From Glaciozyma antarctica PI12 (Eukaryota > Basidiomycota > Microbotryomycetes > Kriegeriales > Camptobasidiaceae), in NCBI GenBank assembly GCA_002917775.1, contig KZ627147.1, positions 484,843 to 548,842 of the forward strand: DNA of 64,000 nucleotides, read 5' to 3'. Both the position numbers and the translations under genes were made by a program. Positions 44,473 to 58,788 of this stretch are shown here, piece by piece. The notes beneath the pieces were generated by a model, which was given only the letters and a program-made list of their open reading frames with translations, made no database searches and had not been told where the DNA came from. Position 1 is the stretch's first letter. Each line of letters starts with the position of its first letter.

Positions 44473-45756
44473 CTATCGCTTCCTCCGCTTCACCGCTCCT
44501 CCCTTCTTCTTCTTGCTCATCTCCTTCCAGTCCTCCAAATCGCTGTCGTCAATAGTAAAGAAGATTTCGTTACAGGCGGCGGAGCGTCTTTCCTCGTCCT
44601 GCGCATGGAAGGCGCCAGCGAAGCGAGCGAGCGAGTTAGAACTGAACGCACCTCATCCTTCTCGGCGAGGAAGCTCCAGCCACCCTCCTTGAAGAACTCG
44701 TACGGGTCTTCGTTAACGGTCTTGAGAATCGCCGACCAGGTGAGGTTGACGGGTCCCTCGGTGTAGCGGATGTCGACCGAGCTGCGCAAAAAGGCGTCAG
44801 CGACGAGAGCTTCGCAGGAAGCGAAAGAACGCACTCTAGCCACTCCTTGACGTTGTCGAGCTGCCCCGACGGGATCGTGTTGATGTGGATCGGCGTGCGC
44901 GTAAAGTCCTGGAAGACGAAGACCATGTCAAAGCTCGTGAGGCCGTGCTGAACGCGCTCGAGATGGGCGACCTCGATCTCGTTGAGAGTGAAGACGAGGA
45001 AGGGCGGTTCGGTGAGGAAGACGAGGGTGTCGGTGGTGGGCTGGAGGAGGACGTTGGAGCGGAAGGGGACACCGAGGAAGCCGAGCTTGCGGGAGGGGAT
45101 GTCGACCTCGACGCGTTCATCAGACTGCGCGAAGAGTAAGTCAGCACGTCATTCGCTGATTCGAGAAGGAGGAGACGAGGACGCACAGCCTCGGAAACCT
45201 TGTCGGCGAACGCCTCAAAGCACTGGTTCAAGTGACGCTTCCGCTGCCGTTCAAGCTTTGACCTAGCTTCGCCCGGCTGGTTCTGGATCGCTGCGTTACT
45301 GTTCTTGTTCGTTGGCTTTTTCGAAAGCTTCCTGTAGAACTGGATGTCCTCGACCTTGGTCGTTCCGACGAGGATGGGATGTTCGAGGTGAAGATGGAGG
45401 ATGACGACGCGCTCCTTGTCGCAAGGCTGGAAGAGCAGATGCTTGACGTTGCTGAAGAGGATGTCTGGCGAGTGTCGAGGTCAGTAGCGAACGTTGAAGT
45501 GGAGCTGAGCGAGTGTACCGATCTTCTGGTCCGACTTGACCGACGGCTGATAGCGAATGCCGTTCGAGTGGATCTCGACGTTGCCAGACTGATTCTTTCC
45601 GTCGACGGATGGTCGAGCATGAACGGTGAAGAGCTTGACTGGTTCCTGTCCTGCTCAATTCATCGCAAAATTAGCGAACTCGCCCGCGACTCGAAAAGCG
45701 AACGCCACCCACCCATGAGCTCGACGAGCCTGTCCTGCTCGACGACGTCGGGCTTC
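44473..45756 (-). repeat. Inverted duplicate of the SPT16 3' part
   Basis: This block matches SPT16 at about 52424-53540 in protein sequence and intron positions but on the opposite strand, about 7 kb away. Divergence is moderate: conservative replacements throughout, with the linker after the middle-domain entry rewritten. The copy is therefore not recent. The last exon no longer resembles the parental acidic tail. Confidence 0.85.
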
Positions 45757-47146
45757 ATCGTCCTCGCCGCACTCCTCAAAACGTCGTCCATCTTCTGCTC
45801 CAACTCGGCGCGAATGTCGGGGAGCGCGGTGGTCCAGGCGGCTTGGTCGCAGACGGCGTCTTCGAGTTCCCAGAACGGCTTGACAGTCTCGAGATGGACG
45901 AGGAACATGAGGGCCGATGGAACATAGCTCCAGACGAATTTCGAGCGCTTGAGGATCTTGCGAAGCTCGCTGGTGAGGTGCTGGTCGTGGATGAAGAGGC
46001 CACAGTCGTTCTTGCGCTCCTCGCGAGCGATTGCGAGCTCCTGCTCACGGCGAGACTTGCGATACTCCTCGATAGAAGCGGGGAAGGAGCTGAGCCCAAC
46101 CTGCAGGCGAGAGACGACCGTCAGGAACTTGCGATCTGGCAGAGAGCGAAGAGCAACACGCACTTCCGTCCGTGATGGCTTCGGGTTTGGTGACGAGAGG
46201 AGACTTCGCCCATACGTCGTCGAAGCTGCGAGAAGGAAGTGTAATCAGCGAACGCACACCTGCACAACAGCGGCGTGAGCTAACTCCGAGTGAGGCCAGC
46301 CAGCTTCGAGAAGTCGACGCTCGATCCTGCGCGTGCGAAGGTCAGTGGCGCTCTCGGTTTCGGCAAGTGACAAACGTACTCGTCCTTCCTCGTCGCACGA
46401 ATCCCGTCCTTGCACATCTTCTCCTGAGACTTCTGATCCTCGAACCAGCGACGAAGAGCTTCGGTATCCTGCGCGCGCGAGCGATGAGCTAACGAGCAAC
46501 TGCGAGCGGAGAAGGACGCACCTGATCGTACTTGCGCAGGTAGGCTTTCCTTTCGTCCATGTACGCCATCGGCTCCGTCTTGCACGTCTGCGAAAGAAAC
46601 CGCACCAGAGCCTGGCAGCTGCGTCCATAAATGAACGAAGCGTACTCCATCTCGCTCATGTTCCCAGCCACCAAATCAGGCAGTCCAACCATCCTCCTCG
46701 CCGCGATCCAGAGACGATCAGCAGACGGATCTGTGAGGAGGTCTTTGAGGCCTGTCGAGGAGAGGGCGAGGGCGTGGCTGAGCAGGTCGCTAGATCCGAG
46801 GTGCGAGTAGGTCTGCGAGAGTCATCAGCTCCGCAACCGAGAACACAGGACGTTGCACACCTCATAAATGATCTCGACTGGCATTGTCGTGAACCGAGAG
46901 AGGGCGCCCTGCTTCCCCTTGACGCGCGAGAGAGGGTTGTTCGTCCTCGCCTTCTTCTTCGTAGGTTCCTCTGAGATACAAGGAGATAGAATGAGCGTCG
47001 CACCGACTGCGTTAAGTCGAAAGCCGCACCTGCACCATCCTTCGCTTGACGACTGCCACGGAGTCCATTCGGGGAGCGCCGCTGCTCGCGTTGTGCGCTG
47101 CGCTGGAGGAGTTGGCGGTGGAAGGAGACTTGCTGGGTGGAGCCAT
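44473..47146 (-). CDS. Chimeric gene: Cys-motif F-box protein fused to the C-terminal third of Spt16
   Basis: ATG at 47146 ([20 protein letters not shown]) leads to [18 protein letters not shown] and the F-box MPVEIIYE. The family regions [39 protein letters not shown] and [20 protein letters not shown] follow. At about 45750 the sequence switches to Spt16: [29 protein letters not shown], the Rtt106-like middle domain ([20 protein letters not shown]) and [16 protein letters not shown]. It stops at 44473-44475 with a short basic tail instead of the Spt16 acidic tail. Introns in the Spt16 part match the parent. The CxxC segment of its F-box relatives is missing; GRSCQ joins directly to the TCKTEP region. 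Near 46055-46065 the frame is shifted by a four-base length difference from the paralogs, so a single product is not assured. Confidence 0.8.
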
Positions 47147-47788: not shown

Positions 47789-48418
47789 CTACTCCCTCAA
47801 CTCCCAACCTGCACCCACATCAGCTCCTCCCCCACCCCAACGCGAAAGGGCAGACTCACTAACTCCACACCCACACCCTCCCTTATCACTCGCATGAGGG
47901 TTCCCCTTGATCCTAAAGCTGGACCCAATAAGTTCCGTCGCATAATCGATCGTCGAACCCGATATCAATCCGAGCGATGAGTGGTCGATGAGCAATCGGG
48001 CGGTGGAAGCGGGGGGTAGGAACAAGCTGCGCCTTCGTCAGCTCAGGAACCACGGAGCGGGGGAGGGGGCGTACTAGTCATCTTCCTCGCGCTGAGCGGT
48101 CACTTCCATCTTGTATTGATACCCGTGACATCCCCCGCTCTCGACGCTGACTCGTAGGGAGAGATCGGGGTTAGAAGCCTGTGCCTGCGCTCTGGCTATT
48201 TGCTGCGTGGGGGCGTTAGCAGTGGCAGGAGGGAAGGGGAAAGGGCGTACGGCGATGGCTGAGTCGGTGAGGTCGATCGTGGCGTCTCCTTCGAGGGGTT
48301 CGTCTGGGGTGAGAGTGGGGGGTTCGGCGTGGATGATGAGGGAGCGGGTCGACGTGAAGGGGAGGCGGGTGAGGGGTCGGGAGAGGAGGCGTGCTCGTGT
48401 CAGCAGTTGGAACGACAT
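47789..48418 (-). CDS. ISA2: Mitochondrial iron-sulfur assembly protein ISA2 (HesB/IscA family)
   Basis: ATG at 48418 starts an Arg/Ser-rich mitochondrial presequence (MSFQLLTRARLLSRPLTRLP). The A-type carrier domain contains the three conserved cysteines: SGGCHGYQYKM, and GGCGCGVSWEL at the C-terminus. Between them lie LIDHSSLGLISGSTIDYATE and SSFRIKGNPHA. Four exons are used. The final intron splits VS and WELRE, which end at 47789-47791. ISA2 works with ISA1 and IBA57 to build mitochondrial [4Fe-4S] clusters for aconitase and radical-SAM enzymes. It is head-to-head with SPT16. All key cysteines are present. Confidence 0.93.
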
Positions 48419-48926
48419 CGTCTCTTGAGGGAGGAGCGAGAGAGGAAGAGGAAGAGGAAGGGCCGAGCAACCAGTCGGCTCAGCGCTAAGTTAATTCGAG
48501 ACTACATATTTACTTACTCGAATTGGGCTTATTACAAACTTTGAAGTAGTAAATTTGAGGGCTTGGGACGCGACTTCCTCTCGATTCGACTCCGCCCGCC
48601 ACTCTCTCCCGCGAGACCAGTCAATCTCAGGAACAAAGAGTGAGTCACTCTCCCTTCCCCCCGACCCCCAGGCGCGCAACGAGACACCCCAGCCGACCTC
48701 GCGAGGGGAGGCCAGCGCGAGGTGACGACCGCGCTAGCATCACCCTACGCCTCTCTCTGGCCAGCGCCGACCTCGCCCAGAGTAGCGGGTGGGTGTTGGC
48801 GCACGGCTGGCCCGCGCCGACTGAGCGCACGAGGTCTCCAGCCTGCTCGCCCCCCGAAGGACTCCCATCGCGTCGTTCTGTCGAACCACGCTGACTCCCT
48901 CCCTCCTCCCTCCACAGCTTGGCAGG
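48419..48926. promoter_or_regulatory. Divergent promoter region of ISA2 and SPT16
   Basis: An AT-rich block at 48490-48560 stands out from the GC-rich surroundings and is a candidate core promoter. The SPT16 leader sequence occupies the right part. Confidence 0.4.
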
Positions 48927-51900
48927 AGTACGTCCTTCTCTCCCTGCTCAGCGCGACTGAACACGCCAACTGACTCCCCTTCGCGCGCAGTGTCTGACGT
49001 CTCCATCTCCTCCCCGACGTTCCATCGACGCGCGTCTCACCTCTTCGACCTCTGGGCCGTACGTCCCCCCGCTCCCTCCCCCGCGCGCCCGAGCTCACCC
49101 CTCCTCCCTACCGCGAACAGAAGAACGAGGAAGACTCGACGCCCTTACCCACCCTCTCTCACCTCCTCATCGTCGCCGGGAACTCGGACGAAGAGAACCC
49201 CTACCGCAAAGGTAGTGCCGTCCAGGTACATCGTCTCCCCTACGAGGTAATGCGTGAGCTAATGGGGAGAGCAGACCTACCTCCTCGGCTACGAGTTCCC
49301 CAGCACTCTCACTCTCATGTCCCCCCGGAAGATCACTTTCGTCGTCTCAGCTACAAAGGGTACGTCCACCATCCTCCCGCGAAGGATGTAGCTGATCTGT
49401 GTATGCAGCAAAGTTACTTCAACCGCTGTTGACGGCTCCCGAGGGGGCGGAGGGGGTCGATGTCGTGCTGCTGGTTAGGAGCAAGGATGAGGAGCATAAC
49501 AAGGGGTTGTTCAAGACGGTTTTGGAGGGGATTGGGAGTGGGGTGAGTGAGGCCCTGGTTGCTGGGTGCGCGTTGTGGGATGGTGAGGAGCTGATGGCGG
49601 AGGTGGGAGGGTCTTGTCGAGGACGATGAGCTGGGCGCCTCTACTGAAGAGGCGCACTGCCGTCGTTGCCCTTCGTTGAAGTTCTCTCATCGTTGCTTCG
49701 AGGGTTCAGGCCTGCATACCGGAGGGAGGAATACAGGAGTGTAGCAGCGCGAGGGGATGGCGATTTCGTGCGCTCTCACGCGAGTAGGAACGCACGACGC
49801 TATGGTCTCGCAATCGCACGCTGCCCCGCTCCCAGACATACTCGCGTCGCTGGATTCGGCTGGCGAGAGAGCAGGCGACACGGGACTTACAGCGGTGCGA
49901 GGGTCTTCGCGATGGCGAAGACCCGCCTCGCGGTAAAGTTTGTGACGTTGTCTGCTCCCATGCGCTCTGCGAAGAGTCGGAAGCCGGCACAGCTCCAGGA
50001 CACGGTGGGTGTGAGATCCTCACGCTTTTTGTGATGAACTCAAGCCTCCTGTAGTCTTGGTTCAGGCGTGGCTTCCTCTGCGATGCCAGGCGCGAGGTTA
50101 GCAGCGAAAGGGAGAGACGGAGCGGGCATCGAGCTGGCACATCGGCGGGTGGACGTTCTGGCGTCGCTGGACCGGCTCCCTGCCGTGTAGTGGTTCTGAG
50201 ATGGCCCGTTCCGTTTTGCTGTCGAGGGGAACGTTTGCTGTGGCGCAGCGCGAGCTGGACGCACCCTCTTTGGTGGCTGGAACTGCTTCGTCTGGAAGCG
50301 GTACGGTTACCTAACCAGGGTGCGATCTTGAGCGCGTTGAGCTGGCGCGATGCTGAGGAAGATGCGCTGGGGAAGGGAGGGACCTCCCCCTCGGCTTCGC
50401 CCTCGACACCTGCTCGAGCGATACCCGAGCTCGCCACTTGAACGCCAACATACTGACTAACTTGAATATGCAGACGATGATTGGTACGCTTCCCAAGGAC
50501 AAGATGGTCGGCAAGTTCGTGCAAGAGTGGACCGCCGCCGTCGCTTCCTCCGACATCGACATCAAGGAAGTCGACGCCGCACCGGGCGTCTCCGCTCTCC
50601 TCGCCGTCAAAGACGAGGACGAGATCGTGCGTCCCTCTCCTCGCTCTCTGCATCGCGTACTCACTTCCTCTCGCAGCGCAACGAGATGCACGCTTCCAAG
50701 ATGACGAACCAGCTTATGAGCCACTTTAGCGATGTCATGTCAGGCGATATCGATTCGGGCAAGAAGGTTACGCATGAGCAGCTCGGGGAACAGATCGAGG
50801 CGAAGCTTGAGGATTCAAAGTTCTGGCGCAAGCTCGAGCTCGGAGATGGGGTGCGTTCCTTTCTCCCTCCTCGTGGCGAACTGGAACTGATGCGCAGCGG
50901 TAGTTCGAGACGGGGTTCGGTGATTGGTGCTACAGTCCTATCATCCAGTCGGGAGGGAATTACGACCTCAAGTCGTCGGCGCAGACGGACGACCAGCGTC
51001 TCAAAGCCGGCGTGATCCTCTGCTCGCTTGGGATTCGCTACAAGTCGTACTGCAGTAACGTCGGTCGTACCTTCCTCATCGATCCCGACGCGGTACGTTC
51101 CTTCTCGTGATGCGGTACGGTGCGATGAAGGCTGATGGTGTTCCCGAGCGCAGAGTCAGGAGAAGAACTACCTCTACCTCGTCGATTTGCAGCAGTACGC
51201 ACTTAGCGAGTTGAGGGAGGGCGCGATTGCCAGGGACGTCTACAACAAGGTCGTCGAGAAGATCCAGAGCGAGCGAGAGGACTTGACGCCTTACTTCACC
51301 AAGACCGTCGGTTTCGGCGTGCGTTCCTTTCGTTCGTTCGTGAGCTTTCGCTGACGGTGGCGAGGGTAGATGGGCCTTGAGTTCCGCGATGCGGCTTACA
51401 CGCTTGGGCCCAAGTGCACGAGGACGATCAAGAGCAACATGATCTTCAGCGTCACGCTCGGGTTCAACAACATCCCTGACCTCAAGACGGGCGCTACGTG
51501 CGTTCTTCTCTCCCAGCGGTGTTTTCGTGGACTGACGCATCGTTTTCGTGCAGGTACGCCCTCTCGCTTATCGACACCGTCAAGGTCGGCAAGAACGGCT
51601 CGTCGGTTCTTTCGGAGGGAATGAAGGCCAAGGACGAGGTCATGTTTTACATGGAGGTTTGTCGGGCTTCCTCCCTCTCGAGAACGTCGCTAACGAGCCG
51701 CTCAGGAGGAGGAGAAGAAGCCGAGCAAGTCCGCTCGCTCCAAGGACACCAAATCCCCTCGCAAAGCCGCCCCCACAACAGTCGTCAAGTCCAAGCTCCG
51801 TGGCGAAGGTCGCGAGGTCGATAGCGAGGCTGCGAACCGCCGGAAGCAGCATCAGAAGGACTTGGCGATGAGGAGGCAGGAGGAGGGATTGGCGAGGTAT

Positions 51901-53877
51901 TCTGAGGATGGAGGAGCGGGGAAGGGCGCGAGGGAGAAGCAGTGGAGGAGGTTTGAGGCGTATGCGAGGGAGAGTCAGATGCCCGAGACGGTCGCTTCGC
52001 AGAAGGTGAGTTCTTTCGTGCACGGTTTCGAGGAGGGAGCTGATGAGGGCGTAGATTGTCGTTGATAACCGACGAGGAGCGATCATCCTTCCTATCAATG
52101 GATTCGCGGTCCCGTTCCATATCAACACGCTCAAGAGCGCCGTCAAGCAGGAGGAGGGCGACTTTACCGTTCTGCGACTCATGTTCACGACGCCTGGAGC
52201 GATCACGGGCAAGAAGGAGGACACGGCACGTCCTCGCCTTTCAATCTGTTCGACCTAAGCTCACTCGTCAACGTCGCGCAGCCGTTCGAGGATTCCAACG
52301 CTACTTTCATTCGCGGCATCACCTACCGCAGTACCGACTCGTTCCGGTTCGCCGAGATTCACAAGGAGATTACCGACTTGAAGAAGGCGGCGACGAAGAA
52401 GGAGAACGAGAAGAAGGAGATGGCCGACGTCGTCGAGCAGGACAGGCTTGTCGAGCTCAAGGGTGCGTTGACATCACTTTTTCAGCGAGGTGTGACTGTG
52501 CTGACGCGCGAGCAGGCAAGCGACCCGTCAAGCTTACCGACGTGCAAGTTCGACCGTCTTTCGACGGAAAGAAGCAGTCGGGCGACGTCGAGATTCACTC
52601 GAACGGTATTCGCTACCAGTCGTCGATGAAGTCGGACCAGAAGATCGGTGCGTCGCTCGCTCAGCTCCATTTCGACGCTCGTTACTGACTTTAACGCTCC
52701 CCAGACATCCTTTTCAGCAACATGAAGCATCTGCTCTTCCAGCCTTGCGACCAGGAGCTCATCGTCGTCCTCCACATCCACCTCAAGAACCCGATCCTGA
52801 TCGGCAAGAAGAAGGCCAAGGATATCCAGTTCTACCGCGAGGCGTCGGACGCGTCGTTCGACGAGACTGGCAACAAGAAGCGGAGAAAGAACTACCAGGA
52901 CGAGGACGAGCTGCAGTCGGAGCAGGAGGAGCGGAAACGTCGGATGGACCTCAACAAGTACTTCAAGGCGTTTGCTGACAAGATTGCCGAGGCTGTGCGT
53001 TCTTGTCTATGGTTTTCGATGCGGCGAACGACGTACTGACTCGCTCTTCGCGCAGTCTGATGGACGTATCGAGGTCGACATCCCCTTCCGCGAGCTCGGC
53101 TTCCTCGGTGTCCCCTTCCGCTCCAACGTCCTCCTCCAGCCCACCACCGACACCCTCGTCTTCCTCACCGAACCGCCCTTCCTCGTCCTCACTCTCAACG
53201 AGATCGAGGTCGCCCACCTCGAACGCGTTCAGTACGGCCTCAAGAACTTCGATATGGTCTTCGTCTTCCAGGACTTTACGCGCACGCCGATTCACATCAA
53301 CACGATCCCGTCGGGGCAGCTCGACAACGTCAAGGAGTGGCTAGAGTGCGTTCTTTCGCTTCCTGCGAAGCTCTCGTCGCTGACGCCTTTTCTCGCAGCT
53401 CGGTCGATATCCCCTACACCGAGGGACCCGTCAACCTCAACTGGTCGGCGATTCTCAAGACTGTCAACGACGACCCGTATGAGTTCTTCAAGGAGGGTGG
53501 TTGGGGCTTCCTCGCCGAGAAGGACGAGGTGCGTTCTTTTCGCTTTCGTCGCTCGCTCGCTTTGCTGACGCTTTTCTCGCGCGCAGGACGAGGGAGGATC
53601 TTCCGACGGCTCGAGCGAAGGCAGCGAGTTCGCCGCTTCCTCCGATGGCGCCGCATCGTCCGACGACTCTGGCTCCGACTTTGACGACGACGCATCTGGG
53701 GACAGCGGGTCCGAAGCGAGTGGCGGAGCGTCTGGCGAATCGTCGGGAGATGATTGGGACGAGGCGGAGGCCAAGATTATTAGGCGGGAGAAGGGTGGAG
53801 GAGGAGGAGAGTCGGATTCGGATGGGGGGAAGAAGAAGAAGAAGGGAGGAGCGGCGGTCAAGCAGAAGAAGAGATAG
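48927..53877 (+). CDS. SPT16: FACT complex large subunit Spt16
   Basis: The start codon is split: A at 48927, an intron 48928-48990 (GTACGT donor, CTGACT branch, GCGCAG acceptor), then TG TCT GAC, giving [20 protein letters not shown]. The N-terminal aminopeptidase-like lobe ([47 protein letters not shown]) precedes the dimerisation and middle domains ([40 protein letters not shown]). The protein ends in a Ser/Asp/Glu acidic tail and a Lys-rich end, with TAG at 53875-53877. FACT handles H2A-H2B during transcription and replication. About fifteen introns are short, except one of 931 bases (49543-50473). Exon 5 ends GIGSG and exon 6 begins TMIGTLPKD, in frame. Confidence 0.95.
49543..50473 (+). 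other. Oversized SPT16 intron with hairpins
   Basis: It spans 931 bases, against about 50-65 for the others. It has a GTGAGT donor and a CTGACTAAC branch just before ATGCAG. It contains two perfect hairpins: an 8-base stem at 49635-49655 and a 10-base stem with a 4-base loop at 49901-49924. The octamer GACGATGA occurs at 49622-49629 and again at the 3' splice site (50473-50480). No gene within it was recognised. Confidence 0.7.
52424..53877 (+). repeat. Parental SPT16 block of the inverted duplication
   Basis: The similarity to the chimera begins at the codons for [11 protein letters not shown] and continues exon by exon to the KDE codons near 53530. The acidic-tail exon beyond is not conserved in the copy. 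Confidence 0.85.
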
Positions 53878-54295: not shown

Positions 54296-56296
54296 GAAAG
54301 CTCGAAGAGACGAAGACGAAGACGACGTACCCAGTCGCGCCGCACCGGGGAGAGGAAAGGGCGTCTCCCCTTCTTCGATTCGATGCCTCTCGACATCCTC
54401 GCAGAGATGTGTAGTGCAGGTGTTACTGCAGATGGGATTGCTGACTTGACGACAGATTTGCTTGAATCTCGATCCTGGCGACCTTCTCAACCTCACTCTC
54501 TCGTCGAAGCCCTTTCGCGCCTTCCTCGCAGCTCCGTCGTCTTTACGCCTCTGGATTACTCTGAGGAGGCGAGTGGGACTTCCTGATTTGATGACGAGGA
54601 ACGTGAGCGAGCTGCAGTACGCCAAGTTCGCTTTCGGGAGGAGCTGTCAGGTTCGTTCTGCAGAAGCTGGAGGGGAGGAATGCTCGCTGATGCAGACCGG
54701 CAGAACTGCGGCAAGACGAGGGCTAAGAAGGTCAAGGCGAACATCTACCTTCGTACGAGACTTTGCGGTCAGTGCTCGGCATCTCAGTGAGTCGACTTGC
54801 CTTCATCGCTCCAAATCCTGTGCTGGCAGCTAACGACTCAAGCGCAGCATCGCCGGAGGACGAGGTGGACACAGTCCTTTGCCCTCGAATCTCCATCCCA
54901 TGACTCGTCTGACGCTTCCCAGGGACGTCAACCCAAATCGTGAGTCGGCCTTGCGACGCGTCTGGCGCAGATGCTGATTCCTCCTCATTCCCAGTCGCAA
55001 ATCGTGAGACTTATTCCTAATACACTTCGCCAGACGCTCAACCACGTTTTGCGCTCTCGCAGTCTACTACCTCAAACTCGTCGAGTCCCGAAACCGCGCT
55101 CTTTGGCGTCGCTTTCCTCAGGTCATGACCAATGCCGACATCCGCCGCGACAGTGATTTTGGATGTGGATTATATCGAACGTGCCAGACGGAGCGAATGG
55201 CCTATATCGAGAAAGCTCAAACCTACCTGCGCAGGAACGACCAGGTGCGTCTTCCTCTCTTCTTTTTCGTTCAGGCTTTAGGAGCTCAGCGTCACGCGCA
55301 GGATTCTCAAACTCTTGCTCGCTGGTTTGAGCAACAGAGAGAGAAGTTGGAGCAGAGGAAAGATGAGATTCGTGGGACGAGGAGGGCCGAGTGAGTCCAT
55401 TTCGTCTGTTGGCGAGGAGGACGCTGACCTTCGCACGCGCAGGATAGAACGTCGACTTTTGGCAGCTGGTTGGCATGGGTTCGAGTGAGTTGATCGCGTG
55501 TCGTACTTACACTTGAATGCTGAATTGGGTGTCGTCAGCTTCGACTCCGCGTGGGCGACGACTCGTTTCGTCACCGAAGCCTTAGTGATTACGCCGCGAA
55601 GTGCGTCTTCCCCATCCGTCCATCGAACGCAGCTTTCTGATTCCCTCTCTTTGCTTGCAGTCTGGAAGAAGCTCCTCCCTCGGATCGAGGGATACCTCAA
55701 CTCGCGCCGCGCAGAACGCCTCGCAGCCGACCGCAAGCGCCTCGCAGCTGAACGCGAGCACTGCCAGGGACACCTCCAGTCCGTCATATCGCCACGTCTC
55801 GACGCGCTTCGCAAGGCTTTACGGGGCTCGGTACCTCGCATCATCGCACCACCTCTCGCTTTTTTCTGGGAGCCGGATGACGCCGTCTTCGACGAGACGG
55901 CTTGGAACAACGCGCTCCTCGTCATCCTCAACGAGATGCTGCAACTGCACCGCTTCGACGGTATGGGCGTCAGCAGCGTGCATGGTGCGTGGTTCTTCGG
56001 TCGCCCAGCGAGATCAGGGACTGACGTCGCCCTCCTAGATTGCGCATTTCAAGTGGAGGCATCTCAAGCATCTTGACGCGGAGACGTGGAGTCTTTCGGC
56101 CACGGCTTTCTCGCTGCAGATGTCGGAGGATGGAGCGACATCGTCGGAGGGTGGAACAACGTCGGGGGCCGATGGAGCGACGTCGGAGGAGGATGGAGGG
56201 ACGACGGAGGAAGAAGATGCTTTGGAGGAGGGAGATACGTCGGAAGAAGGAGCGAGGAGAGGCTCGGAGGGCGAGGGGAGCTACGCTTTGGAGTAG
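54296..56296 (+). CDS. Cys-motif F-box protein A (5' end unresolved)
   Basis: The F-box MPLDILAEICLNLDPGDLL is followed by LPDLMTRNVSELQYAKFAFG and the zinc-type pair CQNCGK and LCGQCS. HPMTRLTLPRDVN and FPQVMTNADIRRD come next, with TCQTERMAYIEKAQTYLR, RRLLAAGWHGFDFD, IEGYLNSRRAERLAADRKRL and WEPDDAVFDETAWNNAL. It ends in a new acidic Ser/Thr/Glu tail and stops at 56294-56296. A 9-base exon (54995-55003) is shared with paralog B. No family-type ATG is visible upstream; the first ATG is the F-box Met at 54383. The intron after LAE (54407-54455) starts AT rather than GT. The rest splices normally. It is probably an SCF substrate receptor if expressed. Confidence 0.65.
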
Positions 56297-56404
56297 GGAA
56301 GGCGCTGGTGGAGCTTTGTACGAGAGTTTGTTTTTTTGCAGTACTGCAGCTCGATTGTTTCTGCTTTCAAGATACTGGAGCTGCTGCTGTGGTCTTCTTC
56401 TCAG

Positions 56405-58788
56405 CGAGGGGAGAGAAAGCCAACCAGTACTGCACCGCCCGCCGGCGCAGCGCACGCCGCGAGCAACGACAGCGCAGGTCTCTCGACGGACTTGGCGGCG
56501 GGAGCTCAGGTGGACGACGGCTTAGGTACGCGACTGGCGGCACTATGAGGGAGAGGCAGGTACGCTTACACGTCTCACGGGTGCCTCAGAGAAGCCCGCG
56601 AAGAAGAAGACGAGGACGAACAACCCGCTCTCACGCGTCAAGGGCAGGAGGGGAGGTCTCTCCCACTTCAACTCGATGCCGCTCGACATCCTCTCCGAGG
56701 TGCGTGGTCCCTGTGCTAGGGGAGGAAGGCAGCTGACTTGTTGCGCAGATCTGCTCCCACCTCGATCCTGGCGACCTCCTCAACCTCACCCTCTCGTCGA
56801 AGCTCTTCCGCGCCTTCCTCACAGCTCCTTCTGGTGCTCCACTTTGGACTGCGGCCAAGAGGAGGGTTGGACTTCCAGATCTGCGAGTTGGGAACGTGAG
56901 CGAGATCAGTATGCGAGTTTCACCTACGGTAGGAGTTGCCAGGTGCGAGCGTCAAGTTGTTGAGGGCGGGGAAAGGGGTTAGAGCTAACGCAGGCTCTCA
57001 GATCTGCGGGAAGAAGAACGTTCGGAAGCCGAACCTGTCCCTCTGTACCAGGCTGTGCCCTCAGTGCTCGGAGACCTAGTGAGTGAATCGAGCCCCTCGT
57101 TCGCCAGCATCGCACGGCGCAGCTTACCCTTTACCTTCTAGCATCGTCAAAGTTTCCCGCGGTCCATGGCCTGCGAACCTTCACCCAATGGCTCGAATGG
57201 TGGTTCCTAGGCATGCAGCCACTATAGGTGAGTCGGCGTTGTAATCCTCCGCCTGAACGAGGCGCTGACTCTCCTTCGCGACCAGTCGAAGATGGTACGC
57301 TTTTGATGCGTCTCAGCCGAATGATGAACTCACAACCTCACTTTTGCAGTCGCGTATTTCAATAGCCTTGAGACGCAAAGTCGCCTCCTTTGGCGCCGCT
57401 TCCCGCAGGTCAAGAGCTTCGAAGACGTTACTACCGGATCTTATCCCACGAAGGGAGTGTACCTGACGTGCAAGACGGAAAAGACGGCGTATCTGGACGA
57501 TGCGAAGAGCTATCTGTTCAACCACCACGAGGTACGTCTTCTTCAAGCGTTTTCGCGCCGAGGACTCATCACTCGCGTCCAGGATTCTCAAGCTCTTCAA
57601 TCCTGGTTCGAGGAAGAGAAGCGGATGAAGCAGTTGAGCAAGCACGAGATTCGCGCGACGAGGAAAGCCGAGTTAGCTCATCTTCTCTGTTGATGTCGAG
57701 GGAGACGCTGACCTTGGCAAGCACAGGATGGAACGTCGACTTCTCGAAGCTGGCTGGCTTGAGTCCGAGTGCGTCAACCAGCTTTCCGGACACGCACTTG
57801 ATCGCTGAATCGAGTGTCTTCCTTGCGCAGCTTCGACGATGCGTGGGCGACGTCTTCGCTCGCTACCGAAGCGAAAACGATTACGGCTCGAAGTGCGTCT
57901 TCCGATTCTCGATTCATCAACCGTCCACGGCGTTCTAACACTCTTTCTTCGCCTCTAGTCTGGACGAACCTCTGATCTCGCCTCGCGGAATATCTCAACT
58001 GCCGTCGCGCCGAACGCCTTGCAGCCGAAGTCGAACGCCGCAAGGGCCAGCGTCAAGCCGTCGTCCAGCCGCTTCTCAACGAGGTTCGCACGGCCTTAAG
58101 CAAGTCGGAATCCCCCGTCAAGTCGCCGCCCTACGGCGTTCTCTTTTACCTTGATGCCGTCAAGCCTTTTTGGGAACCGGAGGACGCCATTTTCGACCAA
58201 ACGACTTGGGAGGCCTCGCTCCCGACTCTCTTCGCCGAGGTCGCTGCCTTCGAAACCAGAGTCAAGCTCGACCTCTTCACCGCTCTCATCGACGCTCGCA
58301 CCCAAGCTTTCATCAAGGTCCCACAGCTCGCCCTCAACCCCGTTCTCAGACCATCCTCCCCTCCCACTCCCGGCGAAATCGACGCCTTCCTCGCCACGCC
58401 CACTTCGCTCGTACAATGCGCGAGGTGCCGCCGAATCGGAAGCTGTCTCGAAATCGTCGAGAACGTCACGTCGTTTTGCTTTGCCCGCAGTGCAGATCGG
58501 CGGCGGATCACGAAGGGCGAGGTGTGCGAGTCAAGGCCGGACTGGGCGAAGGTCGGGCGCGAGATCGCGGTCAAGTCGAACCACCTCGTCGCTGCTGAGC
58601 TTCTCTGGGCCGCCATCCTCGAAGCCGATCCTCCGAAGATTCCCTCCAAGATCATGGCGATTGGGCAACACTTTATCTGCGGTTGCTCGAAGGAGGTTTA
58701 TCGGTCGGCGAAGAGCATGGCGCGGGGTCTTTTGGTTCGCGCACGCGAGGTTTTGGCTAACGCGCGTTTTGCGGGTCGAGCACTTTGA
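56405..58788 (+). pseudogene. Cys-motif F-box protein B, full-length architecture with an internal stop
   Basis: KPA then [15 protein letters not shown] leads to the F-box MPLDILSEICSHLDPGDLLN. Next come ICGKKN with LCPQCSETY, HPMARMVVPRH, the 9-base exon 57286-57294, FPQVKSFEDV, TCKTEKTAYLDDAKSYL and [17 protein letters not shown]. The long C-terminal region includes FWEPEDAIFDQTTWEASLPT, CARCRRIGSCLE and GQHFICGCSKEVYRSAK, and ends GRAL at 58786-58788. This is the only copy that keeps the full C-terminal half with its extra Cys motifs. However, TGA at 57973-57975 interrupts IWTNL-SRLAEYLN, where paralog A reads IWKKLLPRIEGYLN. I also found no ATG before the F-box exon. It may be a recent pseudogene; two separate products are possible but less likely. 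Confidence 0.6.

Follow-up and report, generated by a model that had tools for sequence, protein, structure and literature searches.

The window analysed here is a stretch of 64,000 nt (C2:484843–548842; positions given without a contig name are counted within it), and the genome searched comprises 20 Mb in 18 contigs. On the minus strand, exons of an F-box family (ca 46884–45810) are joined to a partial copy of the SPT16 end in inverted orientation, and the complete parent SPT16 lies on the plus strand at ca 48927–53877. Two F-box-family paralogs follow on the plus strand, called p55 (54384–56297, recognised by family alignment and Pfam) and p57 (56677–58719), the spans of both being approximate. 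A third paralog, p65, lies just outside the window at C2:549–551 kb, and the three were aligned with the chimera. Between the chimera and SPT16, at 47800–48420 on the minus strand, there is a small gene that we take to resemble an IscA-type mitochondrial iron-sulphur assembly protein. The original prediction had described an F-box-family/Spt16 fusion on the minus strand that switches at about 45750, with the whole parent gene some 2 kb away on the opposite strand. Both statements hold: the fusion is real, with clear Spt16 similarity from 45749, and the parent is complete.

The parent SPT16 has 1029 codons and 18 introns, 17 of 49–63 nt and one of 931 nt, and five Spt16 Pfam domains are found in its product. 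The long intron (49543–50473) falls in the N-terminal lobe. An inserted repeat was considered as its origin and rejected, since a DNA search of the genome with the intron matches only itself. The start codon is apparently split by an intron (A / TG, 48927–48992), and the intron 52226–52281 is of the GC-AG type. In a protein search with parent Spt16, which scored only the 8000 candidates sharing most words, the best match among the 120 listed of 1614 is Leucosporidium creatinivorum (80%), followed by Phenoliferia (79%), while the named Rhodotorula proteins among the same 120 reach 72–75%. None of the 120 comes close to 100%, which means that they do not include the host's own Spt16. The original prediction implied a Rhodotorula host; by this one marker the host would instead stand nearer to Leucosporidium than to Rhodotorula, as a relative of these Microbotryomycetes.

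In the chimera, the switch from F-box family to Spt16 takes place inside a single exon (45713–46100) and in frame. This fusion exon starts with a family C-terminal piece (IEEY...) and runs into a clearly Spt16-like stretch at 45749, here called the DVVEQ start. A weaker match extends back to ca 45809: for 45809–45749 against Spt16, the protein shuffle gives p = 0.02 and the DNA score was reached by none of 1000 shuffles, whereas the same test against paralog p57 gives 0.38 (protein) and 0.05 (DNA). The Spt16 similarity thus probably starts at ca 45809. The inverted arms shared by chimera and parent are 60–529 nt long and 80–93% identical, far beyond chance. When the genome is searched at the DNA level with the fused stretch, two places match, the chimera and the parent. 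The parent's M domain, used as a protein query, has eight exon matches, all at one or the other; neither search reveals a third Spt16 place. These results support a genuine fusion, in frame at its origin, in which an F-box-family gene acquired the chromatin-binding middle domain of Spt16 from the adjacent parent. The fusion boundary is structurally sensible.

The copied portion comprises the tandem-PH middle (M) domain and the basic last residues. Downstream of the fusion exon, five Spt16-derived exons (44473–45650) encode the rest of PH_SPT16, the Rttp106-like domain, a shortened acidic tail and the basic end. All five Spt16-derived introns have the positions seen in the parent, and the frame stays open as far as the stop at 44473, with no earlier stop over about 290 codons. 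Pfam scores PH_SPT16 at 126.7 bits (cut-off 23) and the Rttp106-like domain at 83.4 bits (cut-off 25.5) in the chimera; by the same method the N-lobe, M24-like and SPT16 dimerisation domains are absent from it, and all three are present in the parent. The acidic tail has been reduced from 98 residues (26 D/E) to 43 (12 D/E), and the basic end is kept.

We compared the Spt16 half with 31 fungal Spt16 proteins, which we chose ourselves from the best 120 matches listed, and called a position nearly invariant when it is conserved in at least 30 of the 31. The chimera has changed 27 of 152 such positions, none of which is changed in the parent. The distribution is uneven, with 14 of 20 changed in the loop between the PH domains, 10 of 58 before the conversion tract described below when the loop is left aside, and 3 of 74 in the two tract exons. 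The original prediction had stated that the Spt16 part retained its frame, its introns and its conserved residues; the first two are confirmed and the third is not. The loop (45220–45330) is far more diverged than its flanks, apparently also at silent sites, and it looks as if it had been replaced or repeatedly cut rather than point-mutated. As for histone binding, the yeast spt16-m mutant (K692R693 to AA) has defects in H3/H4 binding according to PMC10681723. Yeast K692/R693 are the KR of PDTKRVP, and the residues aligned with them are KK in the parent and KN in the chimera. By this alignment, one basic residue of the pair linked to H3/H4 binding is left in the chimera.

The closest paralog of the F-box half is p65. 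Compared with p55, p57 and p65, the N-terminal two thirds of the chimera have kept the family's intron positions and frames, lesions aside, and Spt16 takes the place of the C-terminal end that the paralogs have. The family exon 1 (47030–47146, minus strand) starts with MAPP... and is followed by the F-box-like exons 46884–46861 and 46812–46522, in which the frame opens with MPVEIIYE, and by further family exons at 46164–46468. The exon upstream of the fusion exon still reads family-like over a stretch of 20 residues. The Cys-rich exons of p55 and p57 (CGKT...CGQC, CGKK...CPQC) are deleted, and alignment with these paralogs places the scar at 46611–46588; the Cys motif named in the original prediction is gone from the chimera. 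The chimera also carries two extra residues within its F-box. In a 618-aa model of the chimera, in which the splicing is shifted (see below), Pfam recognises no F-box at E values up to 1, and in the isolated segment none at E values up to 10, a setting at which the filters drop most very weak matches. For comparison, p57 (31.6 bits) and p55 (26.5 bits) are above the cut-off of 20.5. Another family member, at 28 kb, scores 18.1 bits and falls short of it, which means that a weak F-box is not peculiar to the chimera. On contig C2 the family resembles a birth-and-death cluster, and further matches occur on C4, C5, C8 and C16. Two of its members carry lesions of their own, namely a 1-nt frameshift near 56907 and an in-frame TGA in p57 (56737–58719), and a 2-nt loss and a TGA in p65 (C2:549043–551000, L026).

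The original prediction assumed an intact frame from the F-box into Spt16. This frame is broken by four extra nucleotides, TTCT, at 46077–46074, which shift the fusion exon out of frame with the F-box exons. The beginning of the C-terminal exon was compared at twelve other family places, p55, p57 and p65 included. All 11 informative paralogs read one frame through the insertion point and match from residue 1 or 2 (p57 with its TGA there); at the twelfth place (L043) the match sets in later and is uninformative at this point. Among the family places compared, the insert is found in the chimera only. With the start at 46884 and the splice sites of the family, translation stops at 46047, before the junction; only shifted splicing, such as 46257–46204, would bring F-box and Spt16 parts into one frame. 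A second lesion lies in exon 1, where the alignment with p65, part of whose output is missing in its middle, has a 6-nt gap and a frame-breaking 1-nt gap. The start proposed originally, ATG 47146, is with the family donor out of frame with the F-box exons and runs to a stop in exon 3, whereas the corresponding family ATG in p65 is in frame. Looser splicing offers 181 paths from ATG 47146, the best of which has a weakest site of 3.7.

Some of the splice sites have deteriorated as well. On a score matrix built from 17 parent donors, which themselves score 6.2–11.8, four of the chimera's ten donors under family splicing fall below every parent donor (GTTAGC −0.8, GTACAC 1.3, GTGTGC 3.3 and GTGGGT 5.3). 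GTTAGC is the present form of the family donor at 46284, and GTACAC belongs to the second Spt16-derived intron, the acceptor of which scores −1.6. It should be pointed out that these scores do not discriminate sharply, as low values (4.7 and 1.1) are also obtained for the fourth intron of p55. In a chimeric pseudogene one looks for frame lesions and for splice decay relative to the paralogs, and both are present here.

The divergence between chimera and parent is far from uniform. Over the 529 nt of 44639–45167 the two are 93% identical, exons and introns alike, compared to 80–82% in the other SPT16-matching arms longer than 60 nt. Intron differences amount to 12 of 109 positions inside this tract and 39 of 125 on its 5' side (Fisher p = 2e-4), with 9 of 40 on the 3' side, and the silent divergence is 0.13 in the tract versus 0.46–0.60 elsewhere. 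This pattern makes gene conversion from the parent the probable origin of the tract. In our reading, the distal exons look conserved partly because they have been recopied from the parent.

The original prediction also took the preservation of the Spt16 part as a sign of selection over some time and proposed a dN/dS check of the exons derived from it. The pairwise values between chimera and parent are 0.36 for the older part without the loop, 0.46 with it, and 0.28 for the converted part. The parent itself is strongly conserved, and a neutral copy is therefore expected near 0.5, close to these values, so we dropped pairwise dN/dS as a test of constraint. A sign of constraint does appear when the changes are polarised with four near relatives and compared with a neutral simulation (400 runs). 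Of the 45 differences outside the loop, 40 belong to the chimera branch and 2 to that of the parent, and 3 are undecided. Those on the chimera branch fall at nearly invariant sites in 13 of 40 cases (32.5%), against 50% under neutrality (95% range 40–60%; binomial p = 0.019). If half of the silent divergence is assumed to belong to the chimera branch, the simulation expects 66 changes (54–79) where 40 are seen. When the branch is disregarded, differences fall on 13 of the 132 nearly invariant positions and on 32 of the 127 others (p = 0.0016), and residues absent from all 31 relatives occur at 10 of 132 and 23 of 127, respectively (p = 0.015). In the neutral simulation, the chance of meeting no stop is 0.039–0.060 in the older part (0.13 if a divergence of 0.15 is assumed) and 0.53 in the converted tract. 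The PH1 exon has three length changes, of 3, 3 and 6 nt; in the tail exon, rewriting has gone too far for such changes to be counted. Taken together, these figures suggest that the Spt16 half has a coding past under relaxed constraint, from which a working gene today does not follow. Of the original claim, some constraint thus stands, and the good preservation is in part that of the probable conversion tract.

On this basis we consider it probable that the locus is a once in-frame chimera, formerly coding, which is now a decaying gene rather than a working new protein. A local inverted partial duplication of SPT16 would have landed inside a member of the clustered F-box family, replacing the C-terminal end of that gene and joining it in frame within one exon. 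Owing to this in-frame join, the ancestral gene could encode an F-box-family N-terminus, the tandem-PH M domain and the basic tail. The chimera was then probably translated and partly constrained for a time, and the divergence suggests that its distal part was later overwritten by conversion from the parent. Damage would have followed in the form of the two frame lesions and the loss of a splice donor, the Cys-rich region, the recognisable F-box and one basic residue. At present most likely no full chimeric protein is made; a transcript with the family sites and the start at 46884 would be read as far as the stop at 46047, giving a truncated piece of an F-box-family protein. The position of the chimera in an F-box cluster where p57 and p65 are also lesioned counts for decay. 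However, the open Spt16 half, the 3/3/6-nt changes, the avoidance of conserved sites and the family-like upstream exon would fit a gene that is coding still or was until lately.

A living young gene was accordingly considered, and we hold it to be a rather doubtful reading. In it, shifted splicing or an internal start would give a FACT-free tandem-PH module, with or without a degenerate F-box-family N-terminus. This module would bind histones or partners of Spt16 in competition with FACT, and conversion would keep it usable. The version with shifted splicing, which we judge unlikely, has donor 46257 and acceptor 46204 compensate the 4-nt insert, to yield a 618-aa protein, made of a degenerate F-box-family N-terminus and the Spt16 M domain, that would bind histones outside FACT and act as competitor or decoy. 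A frame of 618 codons is indeed open from 46884 to 44473 when the introns 46521–46469, 46379–46327 and 46163–46101 are also removed; the ten introns of this model (48–63 nt) are near the parent's 17 of 49–63 nt, donor 46257 scores 9.3, and the Spt16 half is open, with changes biased against conserved sites. However, acceptor 46204 is weak (3.0) and lies behind the stronger family acceptor 46226 (8.6), the shifted exon swaps the family-like FDDVWAK...KPEAITDG for another frame, and the start must move to 46884 or rely on weak sites. Moreover, at loose thresholds there are 790 in-frame splice combinations from 46468. The 618-aa path is only the second of these by weakest site, the best one (3.9) needing a 2-nt exon, and the existence of an open path therefore proves little. 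The histone-binding pair is also damaged (KN). The version with an internal start, which seems to us quite improbable, gives a free-standing M-domain protein of 383 or 333 aa from an ATG, for instance that at 45908 or 45758. Between 46100 and 44473 the downstream frame is open and contains in-frame ATGs, and both frame lesions are confined to the F-box half, but the product would depend on the weak donor GTACAC and acceptor (−1.6) of the second Spt16-derived intron, and retention of this intron would meet a stop in PH1.

Errors in the assembly could in principle have produced the frame lesions in an intact fused gene, since 1 and 4 nt are sizes that some long-read assemblies produce. This is very unlikely, as the 4-nt insert lies outside any homopolymer, the parent SPT16 a few kb off assembles without a lesion over 1029 codons, and the decayed donors and the lost Cys region and F-box are more than single-base errors. 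We have also rejected the idea that the assembly falsely joined two places: between copy and parent there is a difference of 7% in the tract and of ca 18–20% in the other arms longer than 60 nt, and the locus is inside a 710-kb contig, with no third Spt16 place found. The proposal with which the investigation started was an SCF adaptor carrying a histone-binding module; such a protein would ubiquitinate chromatin proteins. The gene does belong to an F-box family, but Pfam detects no F-box in the chimera and the frame between F-box and Spt16 is broken under family splicing, with the stop at 46047, so that we find this function scarcely credible.

Searches for the same fusion elsewhere gave the following. 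The 447-aa piece 3' of the 4-nt insert has 572 protein matches. None of the best 120 covers more than 81% of the query, and these 120 contain Spt16-type Pfam domains (one also PF00628) and in no case an F-box. With the F-box-family part of the 618-aa model, none of 2285 candidates, restricted to 0.55–1.75 times 618 aa, matches at E ≤ 0.001. A literature search for an Spt16/F-box fusion, chimeric gene or pseudogene returned no paper that is on such a fusion by its title or the opening of its abstract.

The preferred reading, a decaying chimera, makes the locus a natural example of a histone-chaperone domain that was cut at a structural boundary and joined in frame to an unrelated neighbour gene. 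It would also illustrate how a copy in decay may come to appear conserved through conversion from a conserved parent. If expressed, the chimera would provide a free Spt16 M domain outside FACT.

Chimeric pseudogenes that arise by local segmental duplication consist of a partial copy joined to another gene, and show frame lesions, splice decay and conversion from the parent. The chimera likewise is a partial copy joined to another gene, with lesions, splice decay and probable parental conversion, but its junction is in frame and the copied half is still open. Compared with whole Spt16, the FACT subunit, it is without the N-lobe, M24-like and dimerisation domains. The closest structural reference is Spt16M (PDB 4kho, 4kha and 4ioy), from which the chimera differs in its rewritten inter-PH loop, in the asparagine at the position equivalent to R693 and in its shortened acidic tail. 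Like Spt16M, it has both PH-like Pfam domains above cut-off, and the first residue of the 4kho and 4kha chains is within six residues of its DVVEQ start.
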